DNA of 47,048 nucleotides from Chloroflexota bacterium (GTDB lineage: Bacteria > Chloroflexota > Limnocylindria > Limnocylindrales > CSP1-4): assembly GCA_029778235.1 (NCBI GenBank), contig JAKOQS010000124.1, positions 1-47,048 on the forward strand, read 5' to 3'. Each line of letters begins with the position of its first letter. Position 1 is the stretch's first letter. A model generated the notes under the pieces. That model was not told the DNA's origin. It saw nothing but the letters and a program-made list of their open reading frames with translations, and ran no database searches. The translations under genes were made by a program, and so were the position numbers. Shown piece by piece: positions 19,801 through 42,327 of the stretch.

Positions 19801-20016
19801 CGCGTCGTCAACGGCCGCGGCCGGCACCCCGGGGTTGAGACGGGCGAGCGCGGCCCGCAGCCGACGCTCCAGGATGACGTCACGGTACCCCGGGTCGGAG
19901 CGCTCGGCGGCCGCCGTCCCGGCCGCGATCTCGGGGCCGTGGAGGACCGCCCAGCCCAGCCGCCTGAGGACGGCGAGCGCAGCCTCCTCCACGATCGACT
20001 CGGTGAAGGACGTCAC
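16864..20016 (-). CDS. hsdR: Type I restriction enzyme, R (endonuclease/translocase) subunit
   Basis: A 1050-aa full-length HsdR. The PD-(D/E)xK nuclease core has Asp146 and ELK (160-162) in the pattern [10 protein letters not shown]...VIELK. The SF2 translocase has Walker A GSGKS (329-333), DEAH (432-435), FTGTP, and motif VI-like [16 protein letters not shown]. The C-terminal helical region (about 800-1050) binds the M/S core. In the complex it cleaves DNA after translocation from unmethylated sites. GTG 20016 overlaps the stop of the AlbA_2/ATPase gene by 4 nt. All catalytic motifs are intact, so it should be active with HsdM and HsdS upstream. Confidence 0.95.
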
Positions 20017-21773
20017 GGTTCGGGCTCGTCCCAGAGGGTCGCTCCGTCAGCCTTCGGCGCCTGGCTCCTCCGGCCCGCGCGGGCGCGATGCGGGAACTTG
20101 GGCCCCGGTCCGTACTCCACGCCGGGTCCGCGCTGCTGGACGGACGTCTTGACGAGGATCTCCCGGCGCACGAGATCGTCGATGATGGCGTTCGCCGGGT
20201 GCACGGTCACGTCGAACAGGTTCTGGACCGTCCGGTTGGTGATCTTCCCGTACTCCACCACGTGGGCGACGACCTTCCGGTCGGTGTCCGAGATGCTCCG
20301 CACCTGGTACGCCACTGCCGGGCCGAGGGCGGCCAGGGCGGCGCCCGACAGCTTGTACGCGGGCCCGGCGCCGCCACGCGCGGGGCGCGTCCGCTCGATC
20401 ATCGCGGGCGGATCCACCGCGAGCCTGCCGAGGATCGTCGCGGCCTCGGCCTCCGACCGCTGGAGGAGCGGCGCGACCGTCAGCGGCGTGACCACGCGGG
20501 TCGAGCACAAGCGGTACAGGACCAGCAGGGCGTCGGTGTCGTCCCGCTCCACCGACGGCAACGACGCCACGTACCGCGCGATATGCACGTTCGGCGCGCC
20601 GCCGACCATGCGGACCGCGACCTGGCCCGGATCGCTCTCGATGACCGGAAGGCCCCGCCCGGCCCGGATCAGCGAGATGTAGATCCGGTCGATCCCGCGC
20701 CCGAACTCCTCCGCGAACCCGAGCTTGCGGGCCGCGTTCGCGAGCGTGCGGTTCCGCGGCTTGGGCGGGTGGGTGAGGATGTTCTCGGGCGTCACGCCCG
20801 ACACGAGCGGCCCGGGCGATGTGACCGCGAAGACCGCCGGCGAGTGCTCGATCGCGACGGCCCCCGGAAGCCGGTAGTCGCGGTGCACGAGACCGTTCGC
20901 GATCGCCTCGCGGGCTGCCAGTTCCGGGAAGTCCTGGAGCTGGATCTGCTGCCCATCGGGGAGGTTGAGGGGCGCGCTGTTGAGCCGGGTCCGCACGACC
21001 TCCATCACCCGCGCGAACGACGTCACGAGCGGGCCCTCGAGGCGCTCGGAGAACGTCGGCTCGCCGCCGGGCGTTGGGCGGAACTGGTAGACGAGGCGGG
21101 GCCGCTCCGCCTCCGCCGGCAGCAGCAGGAGCGCCCCGGCGCGGTTCAGGCGGTCGCCGGCCAGCAGGTCCAGGGCGCGGAGCATGTCGAGGTCGCTCAG
21201 GGAGATGAGGCGCCGGCGCTCGTCGGGCAGCGCGGAGAGGACCGACCTGACTGCCTCGAGCGTGGCGGCGGAGACATCGCTCGGCGCTCGATCCGACGCC
21301 TCGGCCGACCAGTCGTGCCCGAGCCGCTCCTCGCGCAGCCGCGTCGCCTCGGCGACCGGCATCGGCTGGCACTGGTTGCCGATGCGCTGGTACGGGCGGC
21401 CCTTCGAGTCGGCGTAGACGTCGACGCCCTCGGGCACGCGGACGACGAGCAGGCGCACCCCTCGGTGGACGAGCTCCTGGACCTCGACGAGCAGCCCCGG
21501 CTGCGTCGAGGCGTAGACGGACTGGCGGAGCTGGTCGATCGCGAGCGACGTTCCGAGGAACGCCTGCGGGCCTGTCCCGCGATCGGCGACGCCGAGCACG
21601 ATCGTCCCGCCCGCCCCGTTCGCGAAGCACACGGCGACCTCGACGATGAGCCGCTCGGTGTCTTCGGGCAGGCGCTTGTCCTGCTTGAACTCCAGGGTCT
21701 GGCTCTCGAGCTCAGCCGGGGTTCGCCCGCTGTCGATCTCGGCCAGGATCCGTGCGACGTCGACGGCCACCAT
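20013..21773 (-). CDS. AlbA_2 (Schlafen-like) DNA-binding protein with GHKL ATPase-like domain
   Basis: A 586-aa protein. The N-terminal AlbA_2 domain is marked by [13 protein letters not shown] (residues about 22-34) and [22 protein letters not shown]-type region follows ([15 protein letters not shown], then [16 protein letters not shown] and [13 protein letters not shown]). The last 150 residues carry winged-helix-like segments ([26 protein letters not shown]). Such proteins are annotated as ATP-binding or transcriptional regulators and are often found inside type I RM loci; their job there is unclear. The gene has its own 125-nt upstream region with a palindromic operator candidate, and its stop overlaps hsdR. 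It could regulate the locus or add a defence activity. Confidence 0.85.
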
Positions 21774-21795
21774 CCCCTCGCAGGCAGTTTCGCTG

Positions 21796-21836
21796 GAGTT
21801 TAGCGAGCCTGCGTATCATGCGCAACTGCTAAACTC
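21796..21836. promoter_or_regulatory. Nested inverted repeats, operator/promoter candidate
   Basis: Outer 9-bp perfect arms GAGTTTAGC (21796-21804) and GCTAAACTC (21828-21836) enclose an imperfect inner palindrome TGCGTATCATGCGCA. The spacer is markedly richer in A/T than the surroundings. It lies 23-63 nt before the ATG of the AlbA_2/ATPase gene (21773), between it and hsdS, where a second promoter of the locus would be expected. Confidence 0.5.
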
Positions 21837-21898
21837 GGGACAAACCCCGCCGGTGGTCGAACCGGTGCGCCGTGATCCTGGGCTCGACAACCAGGGAC

Positions 21899-23105
21899 TC
21901 ATGCCAAGGCAGCCGGCGTGATCCCCTCCGCTTCTGGGAGCAGCTCTCCTGCCAGGAGCTTCGGCAGCAGGGCGTCGCGAATCGCGCCGAGGGTGTTGGA
22001 CTCGTCGGCCGCGATCGCGGCTCGCTCGAGAAGCGGGGTGGCTGCCGCGGAGAAGACCTCCAAGGTCCGATCGTCAGGCACGACAACCGGGGTAGCGGCA
22101 ACCAGAGCGGGCCGAACAGCCGGATAGGCTCCGCCGTCGGCGAGGTGAGCGAGCGCCTCGATGTTCGGGCGTGCGGTCGCCGCCAGATAGGTGAACGCCG
22201 CATCGCGCGGCCGCTTCGGCCGCAGCTGCGCAAAGCCGGTGCTACCAGTCAGGCCGTCCCGCGTGACCAACGCGTACGAGCCGTTTCCTGGACGGACGGT
22301 GCCGAGGATGGTGTCGCGAGGCCGAAGGACCCGTTGGGCTCGGCTCGGCGCTTCATCAGCCGGGTAGTCCGTGACAGCCCCAATCCTCCCCCACTTCGTA
22401 CTGGACAGGTCGACGTAGCGAAGCACTGAAGGCCGATCACGACTCGGCCATACCTCGGGATTGAGGTCAGCGAGATCCTCGAGGGTCCCGTCTACCCAGT
22501 CGTCTGTGCCCGACACACGGGGACTGTCGAGGTCGACGAACCAGGACCGGAAGAGGGTTCGTGCTGTCGCCTCCAGAGTCTCGGTCATCCGGCGATTCAG
22601 CTCGATCTTGTCGTCCAGCGCGCCCAGGATCTCAGCGATGCGGCGCTGCTCGGCGAGCGGCGGTATAGGGAGGCGGAAGTTCGGAACGTCCGCGCACTTC
22701 AGGCTGTCGAAGACGGCGCCCACGTTCAGGAACCGCTCGATCTGGCCCCACCAGGCGGGCCCACGTACTAGCCACCGGAGGAATGGCGGGTAGACGGTCC
22801 GGCCGTCCGATCGGAGCAGCACGAGGTTCTGGCCGAGCGCGAACTCCAAGCCCTCCGGCACGAAAGCGGTGACGCCGGGGTTCGTTCGCCGAGACAGGAC
22901 CACGTCGTGCGGGACCGGGCGCGCCTTCCGGGTCCACGACTCGAAGTCCGCGCGACTGATCCGCCTTGCCGTGGAGACGTCGATGTGGCCGTCACGCAGC
23001 TGCGGTATCGCCACGTACGGGTAGCCGCTCGGGATGGCGGCCGGCGTGCGATGGTCACAGTCGATGAGGGCGACGCCGGCCTCCTCCAGCGACAGCGTGG
23101 GCCAC

Positions 23106-23113
<8 letters not shown>
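21899..23113 (-). CDS. hsdS: Type I restriction enzyme, S (specificity) subunit
   Basis: A 404-aa specificity subunit with two target-recognition domains. The first is residues about 1-150. The central conserved spacer is [25 protein letters not shown] (about 152-176) followed by an [11 protein letters not shown] helix. The second is about 205-365, and ends in the second helical repeat ([15 protein letters not shown]). It binds the bipartite DNA sequence and directs both methylation and cleavage. The GTG start at 23113 overlaps the hsdM stop by 8 nt. The second conserved region is degenerate ([21 protein letters not shown] in place of P...EQ..I), which is common in this family. Confidence 0.9.
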
Positions 23114-24674
<1,561 letters not shown>

Positions 24675-25014
24675 TTCTGTCGGTCAACCGAGTCTAGCCC
24701 GGAGCGCTCAGCCACTTCCGCCCGCTCGCGCCGTGAGAAGTCGGAGTCGACCTCGCAGCCTCCACCGACCATCCCCATCGCCGCCCAACATGTGGACAAC
24801 GCCCCACCCACCGGCTGGATCTCGTGGATAGAACACCTGTTCACACGGCGGTCCAACGCCTAGACTGGACTGCTCGAAGCACTCCTGCTCGCCGGCCAGC
24901 CTCTTGGCTGAATGACCAACCCCGGAGGGCCTCACCCTTGTTCAATCCCCTCGTCGGGGCGACCCTGCCCCGCGCCATCTGCGCTCGCCTTCGGAGGCGC
25001 AGGGAAGTCGGCCG
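24675..25014. other. Divergent intergenic region between hsdM and the element genes
   Basis: About 340 nt with no convincing gene. It holds the hsdM promoter region, a GAAC-N4-GTTC palindrome (24831-24842), a possible minus-strand promoter TTGGAC-N17-TTCTAT that straddles that palindrome, and a small hairpin CGGGGC/GCCCCG at 24955-24972. It is the likely junction between the RM locus and the plus-strand integrative genes. Confidence 0.5.
24831..24842. promoter_or_regulatory. LexA (SOS) box candidate GAACACCTGTTC
   Basis: A perfect match to the gram-positive type SOS operator GAAC-N4-GTTC, with the wider 12 bp palindromic except for its centre. Established knowledge: LexA of Gram-positives, and of at least one Chloroflexota member (Dehalococcoides), binds this pattern. 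It sits within a possible hsdM promoter and could also serve the plus-strand genes starting at 25015. A 12-bp word can occur by chance, so this is moderate evidence. Confidence 0.45.
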
Positions 25015-25275
25015 ATGAGCCGGTCGGACCCGCTGCTGATGCTCGCCGACATCGCGCGCCTGGCGTTCGAGAACCCGGACCTCGACGAAGCGATCGTCCG
25101 GGCGATCTACCAGCACCAGGTCATCACCAGCGGCCGGCAGCCGACGCTCCGCCAGGCGCGCGAGTACGTCGGTCACCTGACCTCGCACCTCGATGACGCG
25201 ACGATCCGGGTGACCCTGGGCTGCCGCCGGCGACGGCCGAGGTGGTCGCCGAGACGCCTGCCGTCCCCAGCGTGA
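25015..25275 (+). CDS. Small helical protein, first of a possible frameshifted gene
   Basis: An 86-aa reading frame. Residues 1-65 look protein-like and helical (DPLLMLADIARLAFENPDLDEAI, by position 5-27). The last 20 are Arg/Pro/Trp-rich (CRRRRPRWSPRRLPSPA), like out-of-frame GC-rich DNA. In the next frame the DNA from 25197 onward reads DDPGDPGLPPATAEVVAE and runs into the HTH protein below. So 25015-25481 may be one gene of about 155 codons broken near 25197-25225, or two overlapping genes. No recognised family. It starts the plus-strand side of the hsdM divergent region. Confidence 0.5.
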   Translation: MSRSDPLLMLADIARLAFENPDLDEAIVRAIYQHQVITSGRQPTLRQAREYVGHLTSHLDDATIRVTLGCRRRRPRWSPRRLPSPA

Positions 25276-25481
25276 AGACGCGGCGGCCCGGCCGGGGTCG
25301 CCCGAGGGGCACGGGCCTGCTGACCGTGGCGAACGTCCGGGAGGCCTGCACGGCGCTGCGCTCGGAGCACCCGCGCCATGCGGTGACCCAGGAGGCGCTC
25401 GCGGAGCGGCTCGAGGTCTCACGGCGGACGCTTCAGGGCTTCCTCAAGGCGAACCAGCTGAGCTGGCCCCTCGCGGACTGA
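25242..25481 (+). CDS. Small DNA-binding protein with AT-hook-like motif and HTH
   Basis: A 79-aa frame from GTG 25242. Residues 14-23 (RPGRGRPRG) have the GRP core of an AT-hook. Residues about 46-70 form a helix-turn-helix (TQEALAERLEVSRRTLQGFLKAN). It is probably a regulator of the neighbouring element or RM genes. No strong ribosome site precedes it and its sequence continues smoothly upstream in the same frame to 25197, which supports the idea that it is the C-terminal half of the preceding gene after a frameshift. A later GTG (25272) is an alternative start. Confidence 0.6.
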   Translation: MVAETPAVPSVKTRRPGRGRPRGTGLLTVANVREACTALRSEHPRHAVTQEALAERLEVSRRTLQGFLKANQLSWPLAD

Positions 25482-25518
25482 GGCGGCGCTTCGGGGTGGC
25501 GCCGCCGCGGTCACGCCG

Positions 25519-26358
25519 CTACTGGCCGCCCTTCTCCTTCCAGCGCTTGTAGACGCCGTAAGCGAATGCGTAGTCGACGCCGACAGCGCGGGCCGCATCC
25601 GCAATCGAGACCCCCTGCCGGAACAGGCGCCTCATCTCCTCTGACTTCCAGCCCCGCTGCTGCCCGGCGAACCCGGCGTCCGCCGAGGCGACGGCAACTG
25701 CGATCGCTGGAGAGCGCCCTGCCCGACCATCCAGCTCGATCCATTCGGGCGGGTCGAACTCGGGCAGCTTGAGGGTGAACCGGCAGAAGCTCAACTCGTC
25801 CAATCCCTTGACGACGTTCGCACCGGCCGCCCGTTCACCGCCGACCATCTGCACCTGTGCCTTGATCGCGGTCATGAAGCGCCAGTACGCGCGGCCATCG
25901 CGTCCCCACACGTGGAACGCGTCGAGGATGTAGTTGTCGAAGATCGGGAACCAGCGCGGCGCGAGCAGGTGCAGCGACTTCGCGCTGCCGACGGGGCCGA
26001 GCACCGCGGCAAAGCGACCGAACAGGCGCTCAACCACGGCTTGGTCACCGTCCGCCAGCGTCTCGATCGGTCGCTCGCGGAGACGGGCGAGGTCGTCCTG
26101 GTTGCTCTTGAGCAGTTCGCCGATCGCCTCGTAGTGGGCCTCGTCGAAGCGGTGGCCGGCACGCCGGTAGTAGCCGAGGTTCCACGACTGAAGAAGCACC
26201 GCCAGCCCTTCGACCACCGTGAACGGTCCGCGACCGGCCTCGGCATCCGCCATGAGCGCCAGTGCGACGCGGTAGAACAGATCGCGTGGCTCACCGCGTT
26301 CGTAGGCGACGCGCGCGTGTGCCAAGTCGTCGAGGGTGACGGCGTAGTAGCGAGACAT
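25519..26358 (-). CDS. Hypothetical protein with C-terminal HTH
   Basis: A 279-aa protein. Most of it is helical; the core segment GPVGSAKSLHLLAPRWFPIFDNYILDAF (residues about 121-148) resembles the helix-hairpin-helix-like pattern (K-x-L-H-L-L-x-P-x-x-F-P-x-x-D) of a family of uncharacterised bacterial proteins. The last 30 residues look like a homeodomain-like HTH (GVSIADAARAVGVDYAF...YKRW). It is transcribed against the element genes and ends near the HTH gene at 25242-25481, tail to tail. Function not known; position between an RM locus and an integrative element suggests cargo. Confidence 0.6.
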   Translation of the reverse strand: MSRYYAVTLDDLAHARVAYERGEPRDLFYRVALALMADAEAGRGPFTVVEGLAVLLQSWNLGYYRRAGHRFDEAHYEAIGELLKSNQDDLARLRERPIETLADGDQAVVERLFGRFAAVLGPVGSAKSLHLLAPRWFPIFDNYILDAFHVWGRDGRAYWRFMTAIKAQVQMVGGERAAGANVVKGLDELSFCRFTLKLPEFDPPEWIELDGRAGRSPAIAVAVASADAGFAGQQRGWKSEEMRRLFRQGVSIADAARAVGVDYAFAYGVYKRWKEKGGQ

Positions 26359-26420
26359 CAGAGGTCAATGGTGCCCAACCGGTACCCGCTCGTGTAGGCG
26401 TGCGGAGCAACCGGGACTGA

Positions 26421-26503
26421 GGGCACACGTCGGGCACGGACCTGACGACTAACTCGCGCATTACCTGCGCATTCATTGCGCCTTTCCCTCGTTTATCTTG
26501 CGC
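26421..26503 (+). repeat. 11-bp-phased short repeats (iteron or operator array)
   Basis: GGGCAC occurs at 26421 and 26432. GCGCATT occurs at 26456 and 26467, GCGCC at 26478 and GCGC again at 26500. The steps are 11, 11, 11 and 22 bp, so all copies lie on one face of the helix. The stretch is locally A/T-richer (TTTATCTT at 26492-26499). It lies just before the ribbon-helix-helix gene and the replication genes, so it may be an operator array or part of a replication origin. Confidence 0.5.
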
Positions 26504-26527
26504 GGCCCGCGGCCGTTCAATCGGGCC

Positions 26528-26761
26528 ATGCCTGCCCTCACGATCCGCCTCCCCCACGACGCTGCCGCGGCCCTCCGCGATCTCGCAGCGGTGGAGTGCC
26601 GCACGCCGCGGGACCAGGCGGCCTTCCTCGTCATCCAGGGTCTGCGAGGTCCCGCGCCAAGCCAAACGCCAGCCGGATTGCGGCGACGGCGCGTCCGCCC
26701 GCCTGGATCGTTGGCAAGCAGCGACGCCGTGGAGGAGGTGCTGCCCGCGAAGCGACGGTGA
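26528..26761 (+). CDS. Ribbon-helix-helix-like small DNA-binding protein
   Basis: A 77-aa protein whose first 43 residues fit an Arc/MetJ-type ribbon-helix-helix domain: strand PALTIRLP, helix HDAAAALRDLAAVE, turn, helix TPRDQAAFLVIQGL. The remaining 34 residues are basic and unstructured. ATG 26528 gives the strand at the very N-terminus as in the family; the frame extends ten codons further but without support. It directly follows the 11-bp-phased repeats, which are candidate binding sites, so it may autoregulate the replication operon. Confidence 0.7.
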   Translation: MPALTIRLPHDAAAALRDLAAVECRTPRDQAAFLVIQGLRGPAPSQTPAGLRRRRVRPPGSLASSDAVEEVLPAKRR

Positions 26762-26803
26762 CCTCCGCCCCTGCCTCCCGCACACCAGAAGGACGAGACA
26801 GCC

Positions 26804-27280
26804 ATGCCCGACGACATCACCATCACCGCCGGAGCCGCCCAGGTCGACATCGAGCCCGGCACCTACGAGGTCACGCTCACCGAGATCAGCGAGCCCCGCA
26901 CGATCGTCCCGCGGACCGGCCCCAACGCCGGCAAGGAGGTCACTCTCCGCGACTGGACGTTCGCGCTCGAGGACGGCAGGGAGATCCGCGGATCGGCGAG
27001 CACCTCATCGCACCCGAAGTCCAAGACCGTCGCCTGGCTGACGGCGCTGCTCGGCGGCACGCCCCCCGTTGTCGGGCAGTCCTACCCGCGCTCCGGGCTC
27101 CTCGGTCGCGTGGCACTCGCGACCATCGAGATCGACGCCGACGGCTGGCCGAGGATCACGAACCTCTCGGCACTCCCGAAGGCGCGCGCGGTGGCTCCTG
27201 GCGCGGCTCCGGTCGCGGCTCCCGCGAGGCGGGCGGTCGCGCAGCCGGTCGCGGTCGACACCGACTCGTTGCCCTTCTGA
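26804..27280 (+). CDS. SSB-like/OB-fold DNA-binding protein of the element
   Basis: A 158-aa protein. Residues 1-125 alternate short strands (ITITAGAAQVDIEPGTYEVTLTEI, described by position 5-28) as in phage proteins of the same size that precede replication genes. An Ala/Pro-rich linker follows and the C-terminus is VDTDSLPF, which resembles the acidic tip ending in (L/I)PF used by single-stranded DNA-binding proteins to recruit partners. Next to a primase-polymerase this supports a single-strand DNA-binding role. The OB fold itself is inferred, not seen. AAGGA lies upstream of ATG 26804. Confidence 0.6.
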   Translation: MPDDITITAGAAQVDIEPGTYEVTLTEISEPRTIVPRTGPNAGKEVTLRDWTFALEDGREIRGSASTSSHPKSKTVAWLTALLGGTPPVVGQSYPRSGLLGRVALATIEIDADGWPRITNLSALPKARAVAPGAAPVAAPARRAVAQPVAVDTDSLPF

Positions 27281-27284
27281 CGTG

Positions 27285-29405
27285 ATGCCCGCTCCGGAGT
27301 CGGTCGTCGCCCGCGCGCTCGAGCAGATCGAGCAGGGTTTCGCCGTGTTCGCCCTGCGGGCGGACGCGAAGGTCCCGGTGACTGAGCACGGCTTCAAGAA
27401 CGCGACGACGCGCCCGGACGGGATCCGGCGGCAGCTCGAGTCTCCGGCCGCCGGCAACTACGGCCTCGTCTGGCCAGCCGACAGCCCGGAGCGCGTCGTC
27501 GTGTTCGACCTCGACGACGGCGGCGGCGCGGACCGCCCCTGGCGCGAACGGATGCTCGACCTGGTCGCAGTCCACGGGCCGCTCCCCGCCACCAAGACGA
27601 CGACCACGCCCTCGGGCGGCCGCCACGCCTTCTACCGCTGGCCGGCTGACGCGCCGATCCCCGCGGGCGACGAGCTCTTCGGCTTCACCGTGCGCTGGCC
27701 CGGGCGCGGCTACCTCGTCGGACCCGGCAGCCGCATCGGGGACCGCGAGTACACGGCGGGCCCGGTGGCCGAGATCGCCGAGCTGCCCGCCCGATGGGTC
27801 GAGGCGGCCCTCGCAGAGCGACCCGGTCGCGGCCAGGCGGCGCCCGCCGGCGACGCCATCACCGTCACGCCCAGCTTCTCCCTGCCCGACCGGATCCCCG
27901 CCGGCCGCCGGTATGCCGCCGTCCGCGATTACGTCGCCAGCCGCTACAACGCAGGGCTCGGGCTCGACGAGCTGTGGGAGCTCGTCCGCACCCAGGTCGC
28001 CCCCCGGTTCGAGGTCGCCAAGACCGAGCCGGAGCTCCGGGCCGACTTCGACCGGGTGACCGAGAAGATCGGCGAGCGTCTCGGCGCGCCGGCGCACACG
28101 CCCGAAGTGCGCCGTGCCCCAGGCCCCGGCATGGACGCAGCCGACCTTCTGGGCGTCGACCTGCCGCCCCTGCGCTGGATCGTGCCGGGCCTGATCCCCG
28201 AGGGGACGACGATCCTCGCCGCGCCACCGAAGGTCGGCAAGAGCTGCCTCGTCTACCAGGTCGCGGTCGAGGCGTCGATCGGGGGCGACCTGCTCGGCCG
28301 CCGCGTCGTGCCCGGGAGCGTCCTGTACCTCGCGCTTGAGGACGGCAAGCGCCGCGGACAGCAGCGGCTCCTCGCCGCCCTGGCGGGTCGCACGATGCCC
28401 CGCGGTCGTCTCGAGATCCGGTGGGACGCCCGCAACATCGGAGCCGGGCTCGAGGAGGACATCGCCGACTGGCTCGAGGGCCATCCCGACGCGGTCCTGG
28501 TCGCGATCGACACCCTGGGCAAGGTCCGCGGCGCGTCCGACGGCAGGCGCAATGCCTACGAGGTCGACGTTGCGGCGATGGCCCGGCTCCAAGACCTGTT
28601 CCGCGATCGGAGCGTGGCGCTCCTCATCGTCCATCACGCCCGGAAGGAGTCGACCGACGACTTCCTCACGAGCGTGTCGGGTACCTATGGGATCACCGGG
28701 TCGGCCGACACGATCGTCGTGATCCGCCGCAAGCGCAACGAGGCCTTCGGGACGCTGCACGTCACCGGTCGCGACGTCGCCGACGAGCAGGTCACCGCGC
28801 GGTTCGACCACCTGACGTGGACGGCGGCCCCTGGCGTCCTGTCGGCGGCCTCGTTCGAGCGGGCGGAGGTCTACCGTGTCATCGAGGCGCGCGGCCCGGT
28901 GTTCGCCAAGTCGATCGCCGACGAGCTCGGCATGGAGCGGACCGCGGTCCAGCACCTCGTCGCCGGGCTCGTCGCACAGGGTGCCGTGGCTCGGGTCCGG
29001 GGCGGCTACGTCCCGGCCGAGGTCGTCATCGACACCGCGGAGCCCCTTTCTCTCCCCCTTCACTCCACTCACTCAAAGAGTGAAGAGAGAGATGGGGGAC
29101 ACCCGCCCGCGGGCACGCCCGCACGCGAGGCCGTTTGCACGGCATGTGGCCGGGTGGTTGAGGTCGACGCGACCGGGTTGCTTCGGCCCCATTACCGCGA
29201 AGCCGATCTCGCCACCGCGAAGTGGGGCCGAGGCCCCTGCCCGGGCGTACCTGAGGCCGGTCCACCTCTGCGCGTCGTCCCGGCCGACTCGACCGGCTGG
29301 GTCAACCGCTGCCGATGGTTCCGCGACCACCAGTCCGCCCACCGCCAGACGCCGTCCGGTTGGACGTGCGACGCCTGCTACCCCGAGGAGGGAGATCCCG
29401 CATGA
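27285..29405 (+). CDS. Primase-polymerase / RepA-like helicase fusion
   Basis: A 706-aa replication protein. The N-terminal bifunctional primase/polymerase (prim-pol) domain (residues about 8-180) shows GFAVFALR, the metal-binding VFDLDD (Asp75, Asp77) and SGGRHAFYRW. An AAA_25/RepA-type ATPase follows with Walker A APPKVGKS (313-320), Walker B in VLVAIDT (404-410) and IVHHARK. A winged helix lies near 530-585 (DELGMERTAVQHLVAGL). The C-terminus has two Cys pairs (CTACGR; CDAC) suggesting a zinc finger. It should prime and unwind element DNA. Start ATG 27285 or GTG 27282, 1-4 nt after the upstream stop. Confidence 0.88.
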   Translation: MPAPESVVARALEQIEQGFAVFALRADAKVPVTEHGFKNATTRPDGIRRQLESPAAGNYGLVWPADSPERVVVFDLDDGGGADRPWRERMLDLVAVHGPLPATKTTTTPSGGRHAFYRWPADAPIPAGDELFGFTVRWPGRGYLVGPGSRIGDREYTAGPVAEIAELPARWVEAALAERPGRGQAAPAGDAITVTPSFSLPDRIPAGRRYAAVRDYVASRYNAGLGLDELWELVRTQVAPRFEVAKTEPELRADFDRVTEKIGERLGAPAHTPEVRRAPGPGMDAADLLGVDLPPLRWIVPGLIPEGTTILAAPPKVGKSCLVYQVAVEASIGGDLLGRRVVPGSVLYLALEDGKRRGQQRLLAALAGRTMPRGRLEIRWDARNIGAGLEEDIADWLEGHPDAVLVAIDTLGKVRGASDGRRNAYEVDVAAMARLQDLFRDRSVALLIVHHARKESTDDFLTSVSGTYGITGSADTIVVIRRKRNEAFGTLHVTGRDVADEQVTARFDHLTWTAAPGVLSAASFERAEVYRVIEARGPVFAKSIADELGMERTAVQHLVAGLVAQGAVARVRGGYVPAEVVIDTAEPLSLPLHSTHSKSEERDGGHPPAGTPAREAVCTACGRVVEVDATGLLRPHYREADLATAKWGRGPCPGVPEAGPPLRVVPADSTGWVNRCRWFRDHQSAHRQTPSGWTCDACYPEEGDPA

Positions 29406-30160
29406 CCGCCACCGCCACCCGCCCCGTCGGGGTCGTCCGGACGAAGACGCACCAGTACTACTTCAACGGCGCCGGCCCCTGGCCAGGCGTGACATCGGTC
29501 ACCCGTGTCCTCGACGCACCGGCGTTGACCTCCTGGAAGATGAACCAGGTTGCCCAGGCGGCGATCGCGAGTGCGGAGCGCCTCATCGAGGACCGCGAGG
29601 CGGGCCGGGTCGACGCCGCGGTGAAGTACCTCACCACCCTCTCGACGACCGCGATGGACCGCGGTTCGCGGATCCACGCGTCGATCGAGCAGATCCTCCG
29701 CCGGGAGCCGGCGTCGATCGACCCGCGCGACGAGGCGGCCGTGGCCGGCGCCCGTGCCTGGCTCAACGCGCAGGTCCGCGAGCACGGCCTGCGGCCGCTA
29801 GAGGTCGAGGCGTGCCTCCTCCACGAGACCCTGGGCTACGGGGGGACGTGCGACCTCATCGCCGAGCTCGACGGCGAGGTCTGGCTGCTCGACTGGAAGA
29901 CCGGCTCCTCGGTCGCGACGCCGGACGGCGCCGTGTACCGCGACCACCGCCTGCAGCTCGCGGCGTACGCGAACGCGGAGTTCATCGCCCGGGTCAACGA
30001 TCCGGAGCGGTACCCGCTGCCGGCGATCCCCCGGTACGGGATCGTCCACGTCACCGACGGCGGCACCCGTCTGTACGAGGCGATCGTCACCCCGCGCGAC
30101 TGGGTCGCGTTCCGGGCCGCGCTGAACCTCTACGCCTGGTCGAAGGAGAAGGCGGCGTGA
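29402..30160 (+). CDS. RecB-like PD-(D/E)xK exonuclease
   Basis: A 252-aa nuclease. The Cas4/RecB-type core is visible: GSRIHASIE (His92), then GGTCDLIAELDG (Asp151), LLDWKTG (Asp164, Lys166) and the QLAAYA helix motif near residue 190. Phages use such proteins in recombination and DNA processing. ATG 29402 overlaps the primase stop (ATGA), and its own stop overlaps the RuvC-like gene, so the genes are tightly coupled. Confidence 0.85.
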   Translation: MTATATRPVGVVRTKTHQYYFNGAGPWPGVTSVTRVLDAPALTSWKMNQVAQAAIASAERLIEDREAGRVDAAVKYLTTLSTTAMDRGSRIHASIEQILRREPASIDPRDEAAVAGARAWLNAQVREHGLRPLEVEACLLHETLGYGGTCDLIAELDGEVWLLDWKTGSSVATPDGAVYRDHRLQLAAYANAEFIARVNDPERYPLPAIPRYGIVHVTDGGTRLYEAIVTPRDWVAFRAALNLYAWSKEKAA

Positions 30161-30615
30161 CGAGCGTCCTCGCGATCGACCCTGGCTCCGCCCAGTCCGC
30201 CTGGCTGCGCTTCGACGGCGACCGGCCGCAGGGGTTCGGGATCACCGCCAACGACGTGCTCGTCCGGGCCCTGCGCTCGGGCGGACTCCCCGACGTCGTC
30301 GTCATCGAGAAGGTCGAGTCGTATGGGATGGCAGTCGGGGCCGAGGTGTTCGACACGGTCCTGTGGGCCGGGCGCTTCGCCGAGGCCGCCCATCGGGTGC
30401 CGGTGGTCCTGCTGCCGCGGCGGGCGGTGAAGCTCGCTCTGTGTGGCGACTCGCGGGCGAAGGACGCGAACATCCGCCAGGCCCTGATCGACCGCTTCGG
30501 CGGCAAGGACGCCGCGGTCGGCCGGAAGGCGGCCCCGGGGCCGCTGTACGGGATCTCCCGCGACGTCTGGTCGGCCCTGGCGATCGCCGTCACGTACACG
30601 CTGCAGGCCGCATGA
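30157..30615 (+). CDS. RuvC-like Holliday junction resolvase
   Basis: A 152-aa protein of the RNase H-like fold. Acidic residues are seen at Asp8 (LAIDPGS), Glu51 (VVIEKVESYG) and near the C-terminus in RDVWSALAIAV, matching the RuvC active site order. The length fits phage-type resolvases. It would cut branched DNA formed during replication of the element. GTG 30157 overlaps the nuclease stop; the stop overlaps the next gene (ATGA). Confidence 0.82.
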   Translation: MTSVLAIDPGSAQSAWLRFDGDRPQGFGITANDVLVRALRSGGLPDVVVIEKVESYGMAVGAEVFDTVLWAGRFAEAAHRVPVVLLPRRAVKLALCGDSRAKDANIRQALIDRFGGKDAAVGRKAAPGPLYGISRDVWSALAIAVTYTLQAA

Positions 30616-30824
30616 CCCCGCGCCACCCGGACCTGAGCCCACGCCAGGAGCAGGTGCTGGTCCTGCTCGGCGACGGGCTGGGCCTCGGTGAGATCGCGGC
30701 GCGCCTTGGCATCTCCGAGTGGACCGCCCGGACATACCGTGACGAAGGGCGCCGGCGTCTGGGCGCCCGTACCACGACGCAGGCGGCCGTCCTCGTCCGT
30801 GAGCAGCGCGAGCGGGCGCGATGA
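30612..30824 (+). CDS. LuxR/GerE-type HTH protein
   Basis: A 70-aa protein that is almost entirely one GerE-like HTH: LSPRQEQVLVLLGDGLGLGEIAARLGIS (by position 8-35), WTARTYRDEGRRRLGA, then TTTQAAVLV. No receiver domain. Part of the four-nt-overlap chain. It shares the pattern (R/K)-x-L/V-G-A-x-T-x-x-Q-x-V with the frameshifted HTH gene after the integrase (32613-32854), so the element carries two related regulators. Confidence 0.78.
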   Translation: MTPRHPDLSPRQEQVLVLLGDGLGLGEIAARLGISEWTARTYRDEGRRRLGARTTTQAAVLVREQRERAR

Positions 30825-30994
30825 CGGACTCCCTTCCTCCGGCCCCGCCCCGGACCGACCCGCTCGCGGCGGCCCTCGCGTTCGCGATCCGCGAGGCCGT
30901 GCGCCTGGAGGGGGAGCGCGGACGCTTGCCTGCGGCGCCCGACAGAGCGAATGTCGTCCCCATGAAGCCGAAGCCCGAGGCCCGGGTGGCGTGA
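30821..30994 (+). CDS. Small protein between HTH gene and integrase
   Basis: A 57-aa frame beginning ATG 30821, overlapping the HTH gene stop (ATGA), and ending TGA 30992-30994, overlapping the integrase GTG (GTGA). The junctions on both sides are the same 4-nt overlaps used throughout this operon, which is the main reason to call it. The sequence has a central amphipathic helix (LAAALAFAIREAVRLE) and a basic tail (MKPKPEARVA). No family is recognised; an accessory factor of recombination is possible from position only. Confidence 0.6.
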   Translation: MTDSLPPAPPRTDPLAAALAFAIREAVRLEGERGRLPAAPDRANVVPMKPKPEARVA

Positions 30995-32616
30995 CCGCCC
31001 GTGCCCTGCCTCGCTCCCTCGAGGACCTCCGCGGTCGCCGTGCGGCGCGCTGGATCCGCGAGTCCACGGCAGGGCAGGCCGACAACTTCGGGCCCGACGC
31101 GCAGGCCGAACAGCAGGCGAGGGCGATCGAGCGCTGGGGCCTCGTTGAGACGCCCTGGGCCTGGCAGGTCGCGCACTCCGGGCGGACGATCGCGGCGACC
31201 GGCCAGTGGGCCGAGATGCTCGAGGGCGCCGGGCACGACTGGGACGTCCTCGTTGTCGGGTACGTCTCCCGCTTCGCCCGGGACCTCCGCACCGCGGTGA
31301 ACGCCCGCCACGACCTCCACGCCCGCGGGGCGGTGATCCTGTTCGCCGACGAGCGGGTCCTCTCCTCCGACGAGGACGAGTGGGAGCGCTGGGCGCGGGA
31401 GGCGGTCGAGGCCGAGGCGTACAGCCGCCGCCTGGCGAAGCGGATCCGCGAGGGGTACGCGGCGAAGCGGCGACGGCTCGGCGTGCCGGGCGGCAACAGG
31501 GCGCCCTTCGGCACGGTCCGCGACGGGCGGACGCTCCGCGTCGACGAGCCGTCGCTCGCCGTCGTCCGCCGTGTGTACGAGCTCGCGTCGGCCGGCCTCA
31601 CCGACCGCGAGGTGGCCGGGGCAACCGGCCTCGCGCTCAAGCACGTCGCCGAGATCCTCACCAACCCGTTCTACATCGGTCGGCTCTGGTCCGGCGAGCC
31701 GTCCGCCCTCGGCCCGCTCGTCGACCCCTCGACCTGGGACCACGTCCAGGAGCTCCGCGCCCGGTACAGCCGGAGGCACCGCGGCGCCGTGACCCGACGC
31801 CAGTACGGCCTGGGCGGCCTGCTGGCCTGCGCCGCCTGCGGAAGGCGCCTCATCGGGCACGTGGGCCGCTACCGGCACCAGGACGCCTGCGAAACCTTCA
31901 AGGCCGCGGCGCCCAAGCGGGTCCAGGCCGACGGCGAGACGCTCGACCCCCGGGTGCGGGGCGAGTCCTACAAGGTCGCGGTCTACGAGGACGCGATCGG
32001 CCTGGCGCTCGGGCACGTCGCGGTGTCGGCCCGCCTGAAGGCCGCGGTGGTCCCGCTGGCCACGCGGCCGGCACACGAGGGCCCGGACGTCCTGGCGCAG
32101 GCGCGCATCCGCCGGGAGCGCGAGCGGGCGGCCGTGCAGTACGCGCGGGACCGGGACCTCGGGAGGCTGGAGGCGACGATGGCGCGCCTCGACGCCGAGG
32201 CCGCCGCGGCGGCGGAGCGCCCGTCGCGCCTTCCGACGGCGGCCGAGGCGCGCGCCTACCTGGAGTCGCTGCCCGAGCTGTGGGAGAAGACCTCGGACGC
32301 CGGCCGTCACGCGATCGCAGAAGCCGTGTTCGAGCGCATCGACGTCCTGGGGGCCAGCGACTACACCTTCACGCTGACCGCCGCGGCGAAGGCCCGGGGA
32401 TGGGACGCGGCCTTCGGGCCGGGCGTGCTGCGCCTCGAATCACAAGGTGGTCGGGGCAAGACCTCGCACTCGGACGCAGCCTCAGAAGAGGGGGTCCTGA
32501 GCACGAAAGAAGGTCAGTCTGGTCGGGGCGAGAGGCATTGCCCCGCGACCACCGACCTTCTCGTAATGCGGCTCGCCGAGCCGCCCGAGCCGTGCGAGTG
32601 GCTGCGGAGCGCGTGA
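30991..32616 (+). CDS. Large serine recombinase (integrase)
   Basis: A 541-aa site-specific recombinase. The resolvase domain starts with RWIRESTAGQ (nucleophile Ser25 with Arg20/Arg23) and has YVSRFARDL. The recombinase domain follows (GYAAKRRRLGVPGGNRAPFG, then NPFYIGRLWSG), a zinc ribbon (CAACGRRL ... CETF), and a coiled-coil (about 370-420). It would integrate and excise the element at att sites that need not be tRNA genes. The final 50 residues (from about SQGGRGK) are Ser/Gly/Glu-rich and encoded by repeat-containing DNA, unlike the rest. GTG 30991 overlaps the small upstream gene. Confidence 0.92.
   Translation: MTARALPRSLEDLRGRRAARWIRESTAGQADNFGPDAQAEQQARAIERWGLVETPWAWQVAHSGRTIAATGQWAEMLEGAGHDWDVLVVGYVSRFARDLRTAVNARHDLHARGAVILFADERVLSSDEDEWERWAREAVEAEAYSRRLAKRIREGYAAKRRRLGVPGGNRAPFGTVRDGRTLRVDEPSLAVVRRVYELASAGLTDREVAGATGLALKHVAEILTNPFYIGRLWSGEPSALGPLVDPSTWDHVQELRARYSRRHRGAVTRRQYGLGGLLACAACGRRLIGHVGRYRHQDACETFKAAAPKRVQADGETLDPRVRGESYKVAVYEDAIGLALGHVAVSARLKAAVVPLATRPAHEGPDVLAQARIRRERERAAVQYARDRDLGRLEATMARLDAEAAAAAERPSRLPTAAEARAYLESLPELWEKTSDAGRHAIAEAVFERIDVLGASDYTFTLTAAAKARGWDAAFGPGVLRLESQGGRGKTSHSDAASEEGVLSTKEGQSGRGERHCPATTDLLVMRLAEPPEPCEWLRSA
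32509..32560. repeat. Compound inverted repeat in integrase 3' end
   Basis: GAAGGTC (32509-32515) pairs with GACCTTC (32554-32560), and inside it GGTCGGGGC (32521-32529) pairs with GCCCCGCGACC (32540-32550) with one bulge. The inner left arm with flank (GGTCGGGGCGAGA) is also a direct repeat of 32449-32461 (12 of 13 bases). It could be an attachment-site element, a recombinase accessory site or a terminator. Confidence 0.5.
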
Positions 32617-32854
32617 AGCGCCGGCCTTTCCGCCCTGCCGAGCGAGCCACCAACCATGAGGTCGGTGTGGTTGCCGCCGTCCTGGTGGCCGGGTCGGAGA
32701 AGGCGGCCGCCCAACGGCTCGGGCTGCCCCACTCGACCGTCACACGTCTTGTGGCGAGCGCGCACCCGAAGGTAGGGCCGAGACGATGGCGCAGCTGGTG
32801 TGGATCCTGGCGCCGAGGCTGCCCGATCCCACTCGCCGTGGCCCCGTGACTTGA
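32613..32854 (+). pseudogene. LuxR-type HTH gene, apparently frameshifted
   Basis: GTG 32613 overlaps the integrase stop (GTGA). The frame reads an HTH (SEKAAAQRLGLPHSTVTRLVASAHPKVG) and then Arg/Trp/Cys-rich shadow sequence to a stop at 32849. In the neighbouring frame the DNA after 32777 reads AETMAQLVWILAPRLP and ends at 32854. Joining HPKVG to AETMAQLV gives the usual end of a GerE-like HTH (compare LGARTTTQAAVLV in the gene at 30612). One missing base in the GGG run at 32775-32777 explains it. It may be a real mutation, a programmed shift or an assembly error. Confidence 0.6.
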
Positions 32855-32997: not shown

Positions 32998-33870
32998 TCA
33001 GGCGCGACGCCGCGTGTGGTCGCGACGTCCAGCAGCGTGTGGCCCGCCACCGGGCTCTGGCAGCGAGGCGAGCGCCGCCCACGACTCGGCATCGCTCGGG
33101 ATCCACTCCTGCCAGCTCAGCTCGTTCCAGATGTCGCAGACGGTGTGGAGACCGATGAAATGGATCGTCGGGCCCACCCCGCGGTAGCTCCACGCCACAC
33201 GGTACTGGTGCCGGATCCGATGCGAGATCGGTTGGGCCTTCTCCCATGCATCGAGCAGACGCCGAAGCTCGCCCGGGTCGCCGTCCGCGAGCTGTCCCAC
33301 GGCATCGCGGTGCCATGGTGCCGGGACCTCGAGATCCGCCTGGATGCGTGGGTCGCCCTTGATCATCCCGAGGAAGAACGCCATCGTCTCCTCGTAGTTC
33401 GCAATGCAGCGCGCGAAGCGGGCGATGCTCGCGCCCGCAAGGAGGTTGCGGGACATCGGGTCGGGGTACTCGCGCTCGACGTCGACGTCCCAGAGGCGCT
33501 CGAACGCGCGGTTCCAGTGCACCACGTAGGAGGCCTGGTTGGTGATGAACGCCGGCCAGGGCAGCTCGTCGGCCTGGCGCCGCAGCTCCCCGGGCTCGGC
33601 GACGTACCGGCGCTCGAGCACGCCTTGCCAGTCGATCGCGTATCCGGCGCCGGCGCGGATCGGGTTCGCCTCGTCGTGGGCGAGCCCGATCGCCTCGATC
33701 ATCTCGTCGAGGGCCCTGGCGCTGGGGCGGCGATCTCCCCGTTCGTAGGCCTTGACCGCTGAGAGCGAGAGGCCGGCGCGGCGGGCGACCTCGGCCTGCG
33801 ACAGGCCGCGCTCAAGGCGGTGCGCTCGGAGCTCGGCGCGCCAGTCGAGCGCATCCCGGAACGATTGCAC
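32998..33870 (-). CDS. XRE-family regulator with MmyB-like ligand-binding domain
   Basis: A 290-aa regulator. The N-terminal HTH_3 domain spans residues about 8-62 (ELRAHRLERGLSQAEVARRAG, abbreviated; then SAVKAYERGDRRPS). The rest (about 85-270) has the layout of the MLTR/MmyB ligand-binding domain, a PAS-like fold (PAFITNQASYVVHWNRAFERL, then EETMAFFLGMIKGDPR). GTG 33870 is preceded by GAGG with 6-nt spacing; the frame is open upstream but not protein-like. It is divergent from the large secreted hydrolase, with two inverted repeats in between, so it probably regulates itself and perhaps that gene. Confidence 0.85.
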   Translation of the reverse strand: MQSFRDALDWRAELRAHRLERGLSQAEVARRAGLSLSAVKAYERGDRRPSARALDEMIEAIGLAHDEANPIRAGAGYAIDWQGVLERRYVAEPGELRRQADELPWPAFITNQASYVVHWNRAFERLWDVDVEREYPDPMSRNLLAGASIARFARCIANYEETMAFFLGMIKGDPRIQADLEVPAPWHRDAVGQLADGDPGELRRLLDAWEKAQPISHRIRHQYRVAWSYRGVGPTIHFIGLHTVCDIWNELSWQEWIPSDAESWAALASLPEPGGGPHAAGRRDHTRRRA

Positions 33871-37662: not shown

Positions 37663-37958
37663 CTTGAGGACATGACCGCGCGCTGGTCCGATCCGCGCCG
37701 GCTCCTAGTCCTAGAACACGACCAAGGGCCATCGACGCCTCTCTGGCCGCCTCACCCCTCGGTCACTTGACCGATACCCGCGCGGTCCGCGCGGGTCCAC
37801 TCTCAAGGCGTGGTCCGCCCCCTCGCTCCGATCTGCCCCGCCGCGGCGGGGCCCCGTCTACTGGTCGGCCGCGCCCTCCCCAGTGCCGACCCGGCCCGCC
37901 CCGTCCGACATCGGGGCACCTCCCCTTGCCTGGTGGTCGGCACTCGGTGGCAGCGGCC
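37663..37958 (+). repeat. Conserved leader, copy B (first copy at 2162-2413)
   Basis: Bases 37767-37958 align gap-free with 2222-2413 (21 differences in 192). Further upstream 37663-37704 matches 2162-2204, separated by a 45-nt insertion relative to copy A. The GC palindrome is longer here (CCCCGCCGCGGCGGGG, 37836-37851) because one of the substitutions extends it. No gene is supported in the 400 nt between the DinB gene and the anchor gene apart from this leader. Confidence 0.7.
37759..37774. promoter_or_regulatory. 16-bp palindrome TCGGTCACTTGACCGA, second copy
   Basis: Identical to 2214-2229 and at the same distance from the downstream anchor gene. Conservation of all 16 bases at the very edge of the alignable block, beside an insertion, argues for function, most simply as a repressor or activator site. 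Confidence 0.5.
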
Positions 37959-38303
37959 GTGAGCGGCGACGAGCCCGGGACCGTCGCCATCACCCAGCGC
38001 GAGCTGTTGCTCGAGCTGCGGGAGGACATCAAGGGCCTCAAGGCCACCGTCGACTCGATCGCCAAGGACCGGGCGGCGGGCGTCGAGCGGCGGGCCGCCA
38101 TGCAGCGTTCGGCGGACTCCATCTTCGACCGGCTCGACGGGCACGACCGCGACCTCGACCGGATGCTCGCCTGGCAGAACCGCGCCGACGGGGCGCTCGT
38201 CCTCGCCCGCTGGGCACTCGGCGCGTCGCTCGTGTCCCTGGTCGCCGTCGCGCTCCAAGTCCTCGCCGTAGTCGGCCACGCCGTGAACGGAGGCATCCCG
38301 TGA
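37959..38303 (+). CDS. Small coiled-coil protein with C-terminal membrane helix (cassette B anchor)
   Basis: A 114-aa paralogue of the protein at 2414-2758 (93 of 114 identical by eye). From SADSI to the membrane helix (RLDGHDRDLDRMLAW, then ALVLARWALGASLVSLVAV) only one or two residues differ, whereas the first 20 residues vary. One membrane helix near residues 80-108. GTG start conserved with copy A; an upstream in-frame GTG (37947) aligns with ATG 2402. The stop overlaps the protease start (GTGA), as in cassette A. The strong conservation of the coiled coil and helix suggests a fixed partner or homo-oligomer. Function unknown. Confidence 0.72.
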   Translation: MSGDEPGTVAITQRELLLELREDIKGLKATVDSIAKDRAAGVERRAAMQRSADSIFDRLDGHDRDLDRMLAWQNRADGALVLARWALGASLVSLVAVALQVLAVVGHAVNGGIP

Positions 38304-39265
38304 CAGACGACCTGCTCCCCGGCCTGGGCTGGCTCGAGTCCTCGCCAGACGAGCGCGACTGGGGCGTCGACGCCCTGTACGCGGCCACCGGCACCGAGCC
38401 GCCCGCCGAGCTCCCCGCGGCGTACCACGTGCCTCCGCCGCTGTACCCGGTGGTCGACCAGGGCAGCAGCCCGATGTGCGTGGCGTACAGCGCCGCGGGC
38501 GAGCAGGGCTGGTACGACCTGCGGGACACGGGCCTCGCGCTGTTCGACGAGCCGCTGTTCTTCCGCCAGATCGGGGGGACCTCGAGCGGCGCGGTCATCC
38601 GCGACGCGCTGAACCAGCGGCTGGCTGCCGGCTACCCGGTCGCCGGTCACGCCGACCAGGCCGGCTCTCACCGCATCGCCGCGTACTACGCGGTCCCGGT
38701 GGCTCCGTCGGACCTGTGCGCCGCGATCCTGTCCTTCGGGCCGGTCGTGATCGGCACGCCCTGGGCGAGGGCTTGGTTCCACCCGGTCGACGGCGTGCTC
38801 CCAGCGTTCGACACGGCGGTCGGGGGCCACGCGATCCTCGCCGTGGGCTGGGACGCGGCCGGCCTGCGACTGCGCAACTCGTGGGGCGCCGACTGGGGCC
38901 AGGGCGGCGAGGCGACGCTGGCGTGGTCGCAGCTCCCGCACGTCCGCGAGGCGTGGAAGGCGGTCGACCGGATCGAGCCCAGGCCCGTCCCGGCCTGGCG
39001 CATCCGCGTCGCCCACGGCGCGACCGTCGTCCACTACGCCGTCGACGCGCACGGCCGCCTCACGGACACGCGGCGGTACGCCTGGAACGGTCATGACAGC
39101 GGCGCCCCCTGCGGCCAGCCGGCCGTGAAGCGGGGCGCGTCGAGCGGGCAGGCGACCGTCGCCCACGTCACCGCGGGCGTGTTCAAGGGGCGCTGGGTGC
39201 GGATCGGCGCCGGCGTGACGGCGTCGAGCACGCTGGCGAGAACTCCCGAGGAGGTCCCGGCATGA
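38300..39265 (+). CDS. Papain-like (C1-type) cysteine peptidase, cassette B
   Basis: A 321-aa papain-fold peptidase with complete active site: Gln and Cys60 in DQGSSPMCVAY, His177 in GGHAIL, Asn193 in NSWGADWGQGG. It is about 70 residues longer than the cassette A protease, with a C-terminal domain (residues about 225-321, VPAWRIRVAHGATVVHYAVDAHG by position) that looks like a small beta-rich binding domain and is absent from copy A. No signal peptide. Start and stop overlap both neighbours by 4 nt. Outside the active-site motifs and the N-terminal GLGWL...DERD signature, similarity to the other protease is low. Confidence 0.82.
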   Translation: MTDDLLPGLGWLESSPDERDWGVDALYAATGTEPPAELPAAYHVPPPLYPVVDQGSSPMCVAYSAAGEQGWYDLRDTGLALFDEPLFFRQIGGTSSGAVIRDALNQRLAAGYPVAGHADQAGSHRIAAYYAVPVAPSDLCAAILSFGPVVIGTPWARAWFHPVDGVLPAFDTAVGGHAILAVGWDAAGLRLRNSWGADWGQGGEATLAWSQLPHVREAWKAVDRIEPRPVPAWRIRVAHGATVVHYAVDAHGRLTDTRRYAWNGHDSGAPCGQPAVKRGASSGQATVAHVTAGVFKGRWVRIGAGVTASSTLARTPEEVPA

Positions 39266-39447
39266 AGGTCTCCGGCACGTTCGCGCCGGCTGCGTTCGTC
39301 ATCGTCATCGGCTGCGTGGGCGGCCTGCTCGCGGCGCTCTTCCCGTCCGACGCCAACCCCTGGGTCGTGCCCGTGACGGCGGCGATCACCGCGTTCGCCG
39401 CCCTGGTGCGCACCGAGTTCCACGTGCCGGAGTCGGACGCGCCGTGA
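39262..39447 (+). CDS. Small two-helix membrane protein, cassette B
   Basis: A 61-aa protein with hydrophobic segments at about 9-27 and 33-48, separated by FPSDANP, and a polar tail. GAGGAGG precedes ATG 39262, which overlaps the protease stop. It is the positional equivalent of the 74-aa protein at 3515 and has the size and topology of small holin-like proteins. It ends in a GTGA overlap with the HNH gene. Confidence 0.65.
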   Translation: MKVSGTFAPAAFVIVIGCVGGLLAALFPSDANPWVVPVTAAITAFAALVRTEFHVPESDAP

Positions 39448-41005: not shown

Positions 41006-41148
41006 CCCGCTCCCTTCCATCGGCAGGCGCGATTCTAGGCTCAACCGCCGCGCCGTCGCCGTGCGGCCCCCCAAGTCTCAGCGCGAACAGCCTGCTCCCG
41101 GCCCATCCCGGCGCGCCCGAGGCCCGTGCGTGCTGTCGACGGCGCCGG

Positions 41149-42268: not shown

Positions 42269-42275
42269 TTTCATC

Positions 42276-42283: not shown

Positions 42284-42327
42284 CCAGCCTGCGGGCCCTC
42301 CGCTCCACCAACTTCGGGAACACGCCG

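Follow-up and report, generated by a model that had tools for sequence, protein, structure and literature searches.

What element does a run of replication, recombination and integration genes belong to, and where does that element begin and end? The question is raised by a 47,048-nucleotide (nt) stretch of DNA from a Chloroflexota bacterium (contig JAKOQS010000124.1 of GenBank assembly GCA_029778235.1), referred to here as the window. The initial annotation had delimited a minimal primase-polymerase (PrimPol) and serine-integrase element at positions 26528 and 32854. We conclude instead that the window very probably spans the junction of two phage-derived integrative islands, A and B, that have accumulated at the 3' end of a single tRNA-Pro(CGG) gene. 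The gene module is ordinary and its setting unusual, in that phage-derived cargo islands appear to have built up at a tRNA through the action of a serine integrase whose gene ends in its own attachment (att) site.

The right-hand boundary of island A emerged from comparison of relatives whose DNA matches the region around the 3' end of the integrase gene. This comparison yielded a 15-bp att core, GGTCGGGGCGAGAGG, at 32521..32535 on the + strand, which corresponds, in reverse orientation, to the 3' end of tRNA-Pro(CGG) as determined with ARAGORN on the relatives. At loci L045, L046, L050, L054, L056-L058 and L062, the integrase gene abuts the core as the 3' end of an oppositely oriented tRNA-Pro(CGG) gene. 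In the window, another arm takes the place of the tRNA after the core, and this arm also forms the left end of a 5.5-kb element in genome G027 (Chloroflexi bacterium CSP1-4, LDXM01). Arm comparison identified this segment (32536..32616, +) as the start (P') arm of island B, which encodes an in-frame integrase tail, HCPATTDLLVMRLAEPPEPCEWLRSA; the 26 integrase codons and the stop codon after position 32535 come from the neighbor's arm. Given that the arm of a second island follows the core, the last 26 codons of the integrase and the last helix-turn-helix (HTH) gene belong to that neighbor, and the overlap at 32613 lies beyond the att core and bridges two different islands. As read from the sequence, the window displays the integrase of one element meeting the start of another. 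The same integrase-core-arm junction is present in an independent genome (L051, contig G032:C224). No second copy of the core was detected in the 47,048-nt window at up to 3 mismatches, leaving that at 32521 as the sole copy, and island A extends leftward at least to the contig end; positions 26528 and 32854 were therefore rejected as the ends of an element.

Eight consecutive forward genes span 26804-32849, and from the exonuclease gene onward each starts in a 4-nt ATGA or GTGA overlap. They encode a 158-aa protein of the replication module (26804..27280), whose position is kept in L045 and for which Pfam and PHROG searches gave no match; a PrimPol and AAA_25 protein (27285..29405; PF09250, 1.3e-23; PF13481, 3.8e-29); a PD-(D/E)XK exonuclease (29402..30160; PF12705; phrog_298, 2e-30); a RuvC-like Holliday junction resolvase (30157..30615; phrog_1770, 3.9e-16; no Pfam match); a LuxR/GerE-type HTH protein (30612..30824; PF00196, 7.4e-10); a 57-aa protein (30821..30994); the large serine integrase, a serine recombinase (30991..32616; PF00239, phrog_95); and a small LuxR-type HTH protein (32613..32849), which was assigned by arm comparison to the left end of island B. 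That the 158-aa protein binds single-stranded DNA would be a guess. Upstream, also on the + strand, lies a gene for a small ribbon-helix-helix (RHH)-like protein (26498..26761; weak match to PF07878, below cut-off), a homologue of which (58.7% identity) is encoded close to PrimPol in the viral contig L138. The 57-aa protein precedes the integrase in both islands; that of A shares 74% identity with its counterpart in B (C308:18158-18331), with nonsynonymous (dN) and synonymous (dS) divergences of 0.18 and 0.42. For the integrases of A and B, dN was 0.10 and dS 0.57. Pfam and PHROG profile searches matched packaging families to none of the eight module genes. The gene calls and these searches thus bear out the initial annotation in describing six successive genes from 29402 in 4-nt overlaps and a replication, recombination and integration module without packaging genes. 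The genes of the run to 32613 likewise stand, although not as one element, since the last overlap lies past the core and joins two islands.

Island A (1..32520; more than 32.5 kb, its left end off the contig) was recognized by the absence of another core in the window and by modules in common with island B. Its cargo includes a major facilitator superfamily (MFS) transporter, BacA, ATP-binding cassette (ABC) transporters, two-component genes and type I restriction-modification (RM) genes; BacA and FtsX/MacB were named by Pfam and the other cargo by eye from gene calls. The RM genes (16864..24674, -), from gene calls and a match to SLFN_AlbA_2, encode HsdR, an AlbA_2/schlafen-type protein, HsdS and HsdM. 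In a pooled PADLOC scan of 64 A and B proteins, type I RM matches were present among the 25 of 102 families listed, with the individual gene names of A assigned by eye. The module is accordingly the right end of a large island rather than a minimal element, and the RM genes, which had been placed in a neighboring island, lie inside island A, although the idea of an integrative element carrying RM holds. Island B begins with the P' arm and the small HTH gene, followed by a gene for an XRE-type regulator (32998..33870, -; PF13560/PF01381, 1.2e-12), and its host-type cargo (39869..47048; gene calls and Pfam) includes genes for an M24 peptidase, a regulator and NarI-, NarJ- and NarH-type proteins (NarI, NarJ and NarK were named by eye). 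The window overlaps another contig of this genome, C308, whose beginning agrees with the final 75 nt at 74 of 75 positions, and narH continues across the overlap. C308 then carries, in order, narG, an MFS (NarK-like) transporter gene, a second type I RM system, PrimPol, HTH, the 57-aa protein, integrase, core and tRNA-Pro. Contig C57 of the same genome has the same tRNA-Pro and the chromosome beyond it, the flank being syntenic with that of G018. Given that C308 joins the window and runs into tRNA-Pro, island B would be ~34 kb. The contigs of this metagenome-assembled genome (MAG) thus suggest two large islands in tandem at tRNA-Pro, A (more than 32.5 kb) and then B (~34 kb). The arrangement typical of tandem accretion, with two or more elements in series that have in common a recurring att core at the end of a single gene, is seen in the core of the window together with the core and tRNA-Pro of C308, as well as in arrays of relatives.

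The closest relative of the module of A is G009:C50 (matching JAJYLZ010000046.1), where the module forms the right end of a prophage with genes for small and large terminase, portal, scaffold, head, connector, tail and tape-measure proteins. PrimPol of this prophage is 86% identical to that of the window over residues 1-610, and the integrases are 87% identical. After the virion genes come RM-type genes (named by eye), a gene resembling that at 25015, an RHH-like gene and a gene for a 158-aa-type protein, and then PrimPol, nuclease, HTH, integrase and tRNA-Pro, in an order that matches the window. A larger complete prophage with the same genes, which the initial annotation had named as speaking against a separate element of its kind, is therefore present in a relative, and the most plausible reading of A and B is that they derive from the G009:C50 type of phage. 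Cargo stands in both islands where a prophage of this type has virion genes. A scan of viral contigs revealed 21 records with an integrase of this type, at least 10 of which have a portal gene (nine by phrog_12 and L137, which also has a terminase, by phrog_104); the terminase family PF17289 was matched in 0 of the 21, and other terminase families match L137 and L147. Among the 64 A and B proteins, the 30 checked singly against PHROGs included none of head or tail families, and a pooled PHROG scan of all 64 gave no family named as virion among the 25 of 68 listed, many of which are undescribed. No portal of the phrog_12 or phrog_104 type was found in the genome of the window itself, and phrog_104-portal prophages were detected in 4 of the 107 genomes of the family, with a PrimPol relative also present in 3 of these 4. 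Of the hallmarks of a temperate prophage, A and B thus have phage integrase, early and lysis genes (phrog_95, 298, 1770 and 16701), and virion genes are found in G009:C50, with none recognized in A or B, the left end of A being off the contig. Within the scope of the PHROG scans, the two islands also combine an integrase and replication module without virion genes, as do satellites resembling phage-inducible chromosomal islands (PICIs).

Each island also contains a lysis-like module on the + strand. That of A (2402..3739), recognized by its DNA match to B, encodes a 118-aa protein, a 248-aa protein and a 74-aa membrane protein, and that of B (37947..39872) encodes a 118-aa protein, a papain-like peptidase (PF00112, phrog_16701), a membrane protein and an HNH-like protein, the last named by eye with no Pfam or PHROG match. 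The DNA at 2210-2792 (A) and 37755-38334 (B) is 84.8% identical over ~585 bp that cover the 118-aa gene, and the 118-aa proteins show a dN of 0.14 and dS of 0.37. An amidase/endolysin gene comes after the 118-aa homologue in L051, and a peptidase with 42.5% identity to that of island B is encoded in phage contig L137, where its gene lies between those for integrase and terminase. The position of these modules and the endolysin gene of L051 suggest a role in lysis.

We found 364 matches to the core in 83 of 107 family genomes, 58 of which have two or more copies, compared with 3 matches for the reversed control; the possibility that the core is a chance sequence was rejected on this basis. Relatives of the integrase are present in 55 of the 107 genomes and those of PrimPol in 8. 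Cores on the same strand form arrays, with 7 present within 18.6 kb in G036:C64. In 18 stretches chosen for measurement, we counted 36 intervals from one core to the next, 25 of them without an integrase signal (median 2.7 kb), with the integrase flag being loose, in that it also marks a 614-bp interval and contig C256, which has only 3' remnants of an integrase. The core sites studied come from chosen loci rich in integrases and arrays, and their proportions are not genome-wide rates. Genomes G004 and G005 have both chromosomal flanks in common around unlike arrays (11.1 and 11.7 kb, respectively), with synteny resuming 115 bp from the outermost core of G005, which supports the positions of the island ends. 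The Pro core was present in 22 of 30 integrase loci (L015-L044); the remaining 8 had tRNA-Arg or tRNA-Val near the integrase end (6 loci) or no tRNA (2 loci). In a tree of 73 integrases, 17 of which are unlabelled, 45 Pro-core rows fell on one side (51 rows) and 11 tRNA-Arg or tRNA-Val rows on the other (22 rows). The core lies within ~120 nt of a contig end in G009:C50, G008:C41, G010:C13, G000:C57, G019:C40 and G020:C334, a pattern noted for these six contigs that would be expected if, within the population sampled, several cassettes competed for a single tRNA end. Integrase relatives L164, L165, L175, L180 and L197 belong to records labelled Thermoleophilia, Frankiaceae, Actinomycetes and Solirubrobacterales, possibly as a result of spread to Actinomycetota or of misbinning.

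Comparison of integrase ends indicates that the tail is swapped according to whether the gene is joined to the tRNA or to an attP-type arm. In the tRNA context, the gene ends with GGT CGG GGC GAG AGG ATT TGA (GRGERI*), the stop codon beginning 3 nt past the core, at 12 of 12 loci. Among the 22 integrases in other contexts, the reading frame continues for 22-373 nt beyond the core in 18, ends at 3 nt in 3 and runs off the contig in 1; attP-type junctions gave a tail of 22-37 residues at 13 of these 22 loci, and at 5 (L027, L028, L030, L133 and L135) the integrase enters the core in another frame. An initial filter for cores next to a tRNA (ATTTGAACC) gave 25 sites, two of which were not tRNA; stricter filtering of the 100 unique sites left 23 at a tRNA, whereas 71 others were non-tRNA sites of sufficient length and 6 were set aside. 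With the first filter (69 sites), the first in-frame stop was 66-99 nt past the core in 35, compared with 2 and 4 for the other frames. The stricter set of 71 attP-type sites contained a frame-0 tail in 42 and a second tail in frame 1 in 6. For 8 arms of one subfamily, pairwise differences at codon positions 1, 2 and 3 numbered 54, 70 and 154, respectively, with 133 synonymous and 83 nonsynonymous codons, the pairs not being independent. In nine arms of the subfamily of the window, the stop codon of the tail overlaps an NTG start. Tails in frame 0 end in Ala in 23 of 42 cases, and this residue might derive from the overlap with the next start codon or represent a COOH-terminal degron. In the tRNA-Arg clade (L152 versus L199; L145 versus L041), viral records end in an ...RSA tail and integrated relatives read into the tRNA (GFEPATFGSGGRRSIR, PEGLEPPTL). 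We suggest, as a tentative proposal that may well prove wrong, that the att site might act as a protein switch in a serine-integrase clade specialized on tRNA 3' ends and common to phages and cargo islands: a long integrase with a conserved tail would be made on the free circle (followed in part of the subfamily by the small HTH gene), and integration at the tRNA would cut the tail to GRGERI* or to a tRNA-read tail, thereby rewiring the enzyme and helping to set the direction of recombination.

In the explanation that we favor, A and B would each retain parts of a temperate-phage chassis, namely lysis-like genes, a PrimPol module and, at the right end, a tRNA-targeting large serine integrase, with island B also displaying a start arm and small HTH gene. 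We infer that host-type cargo replaced the virion genes (BacA, transporters, regulators and RM in A; narGHJI and another RM system in B). Mobile islands would insert by attP × attB recombination at the tRNA 3' end and import a copy of the 15-bp tRNA end, such that the tRNA would remain intact and the site reusable, giving rise to tandem arrays; A would be the older island and B, which adjoins the tRNA, the newer. The integrase gene reads into the att site, with a stop near the core at the tRNA and usually a tail when joined to an attP-type arm; the tail might also have a regulatory effect.

Several observations weigh against parts of this scheme. The left end of A is off the contig, and a search for contigs overlapping it found none, with only four short matches of 80-86%. 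Both the A-B junction and the join between the window contig (C267) and C308, whose overlap contains one mismatch, rest on the assembly of a MAG with 7.8% contamination. The dyad symmetry of the att sites is weak. An integrase with 51% identity over residues 6-302 (L044) uses tRNA-Val, and identity alone is therefore no predictor of the target tRNA; a Pro core for every integrase above ~44% identity is ruled out by this locus. With regard to the tail, 23 of the 71 attP-type sites match neither tail class, and 3 of the 22 non-tRNA integrases stop right past the core, one of which (L026) contains Ns at this position and may be a tRNA site. Overlap between the tail stop and an NTG start occurred at 36 of 59 sites overall, not clearly higher than the 23 of 50 and 14 of 50 in control frames, and the HTH gene past the tail is whole in only 3 of the 9 arms (L050, L108 and L117), starting and then diverging in 2 (the window and L064) and being unrecognized in 4. 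The second half of the HTH gene of the window (32613-32849) departs from the whole copies as by a frameshift, and a 159-aa gene is intact in B (C308:15077-15556) but divided between two frames in A (25015-25481). These two genes look broken, and A or B may therefore be decaying.

Such damage is what would be expected if A and B were decayed prophages into which chromosomal genes had been moved by ordinary rearrangement and which are no longer mobile. We consider this rather unlikely, given that the divergence of the two integrases (dN of 0.10 versus dS of 0.57), the modules common to both islands and the recurrence of the integrase-core-arm junction in G032:C224 argue against it. The opposite view, that the islands are active phage satellites that excise, replicate with the PrimPol module that they carry and depend for packaging on a helper phage of this att family, would fit a phage chassis without recognized virion genes, lysis-like genes under purifying selection (dN and dS of the 118-aa protein) and the presence of phrog_104-portal prophages in the family, most with a PrimPol relative. 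It appears unlikely, however, in that the genome of the window has neither type of portal and that no packaging-redirecting gene was recognized in a survey not directed at such genes. Moreover, a size of ~34 kb approaches that of a complete phage, whereas phage satellites are generally small.

An origin as an integrative plasmid or as an integrative and conjugative or mobilizable element (ICE or IME), rather than as a phage-derived island, is highly improbable: although the replication module looks autonomous and cargo and RM genes are present, the closest relative is a prophage, and no relaxase or type IV secretion gene was recognized in the gene calls of A and B, which were not the object of a dedicated search and which lack the left end of A. 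The short cassettes without an integrase might instead reflect integron-like capture, with a serine integrase gathering gene cassettes in trans, as the 25 of 36 chosen intervals without an integrase signal and the seven same-strand cores of G036:C64 could suggest. This notion is doubtful, in that the cassettes start with attP-type arms and may thus be remnants of decayed whole elements, as in known accretion, that no single founding integrase locus was identified and that the integrase flag was loose. Integrons proper have the tyrosine integrase IntI and cassettes with attC hairpins, whereas the recombinase here is a serine integrase and the cassettes are bounded by a tRNA-derived core, no search for attC structure having been made.

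Junction of phage-derived islands at a tRNA resembles several known systems. According to papers on the Enterococcus cassette chromosome (ECC; CcrAB at rlmH, PMC6222049) and on the primase of staphylococcal cassette chromosome mec (SCCmec; PMC7581432), these cassettes resemble the present islands in having a recombinase of the large serine type, a single conserved chromosomal target at the 3' end of a gene, att sites in repeated copies, genes for replication and cargo. The islands described here differ in that the target is tRNA-Pro rather than rlmH with a ccr recombinase, a single integrase runs into the att site, the backbone is of phage type and PrimPol is present instead of CCPol-MP. Temperate prophages with serine integrases have the same module order and homologous genes, with virion genes in G009:C50 and L137, whereas the cargo of A and B is of host type and virion genes were not recognized in either island. 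Tandem accretion of ICEs, IMEs and cis-mobilizable elements (CIMEs) likewise involves re-use of attR at a gene end and integrase-less elements with att sites, according to one report (PMC5704250); the present system has a serine integrase, a tRNA target and many short cassettes, with conjugation genes unrecognized in the gene calls. In integration-dependent immunity of mycobacteriophages, as outlined in PMC9635641, attP lies within a gene and integration alters a protein, but that protein is a repressor and the integrase is of the tyrosine type, whereas here it is the serine integrase itself. Islands detected by Islander and TIGER also restore the tRNA 3' end. TIGER covers both integrase families, and the available portion of its description (PMC12424338) does not split tRNA sites by family; serine/tRNA islands of the present kind may thus already be catalogued there. 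A 2023 study of Mycobacterium assigns tRNA sites to tyrosine integrases, with PICIs that have a serine integrase located elsewhere. In literature searches, titles, the beginnings of abstracts and passages of open papers revealed no report of this clade, of such tRNA-Pro arrays or of an integrase tail encoded by an att arm. The integrases described here form a clade of the large serine type that uses tRNA genes, a habit credited to tyrosine integrases, and our analysis suggests that in uncultured Chloroflexota an entire respiratory operon such as narGHJI can be carried on a phage chassis. Alteration of the enzyme's COOH-terminus by integration would render serine integrase directionality testable in a new way, and the 15-bp core provides a simple handle for mapping such islands in fragmented genomes.

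Two further features of this genome were observed. The AlbA_2/schlafen-type protein of island A (20013-21773) is encoded between HsdR and HsdS, and B has a different type I RM system in the corresponding position. A 13.5-kb contig (L047, G000:C256) contains several att arms, some with decayed cores, at 1875-12548, and these arms bound short cassettes with genes for regulators, two-component proteins and a reductase (names assigned by eye).

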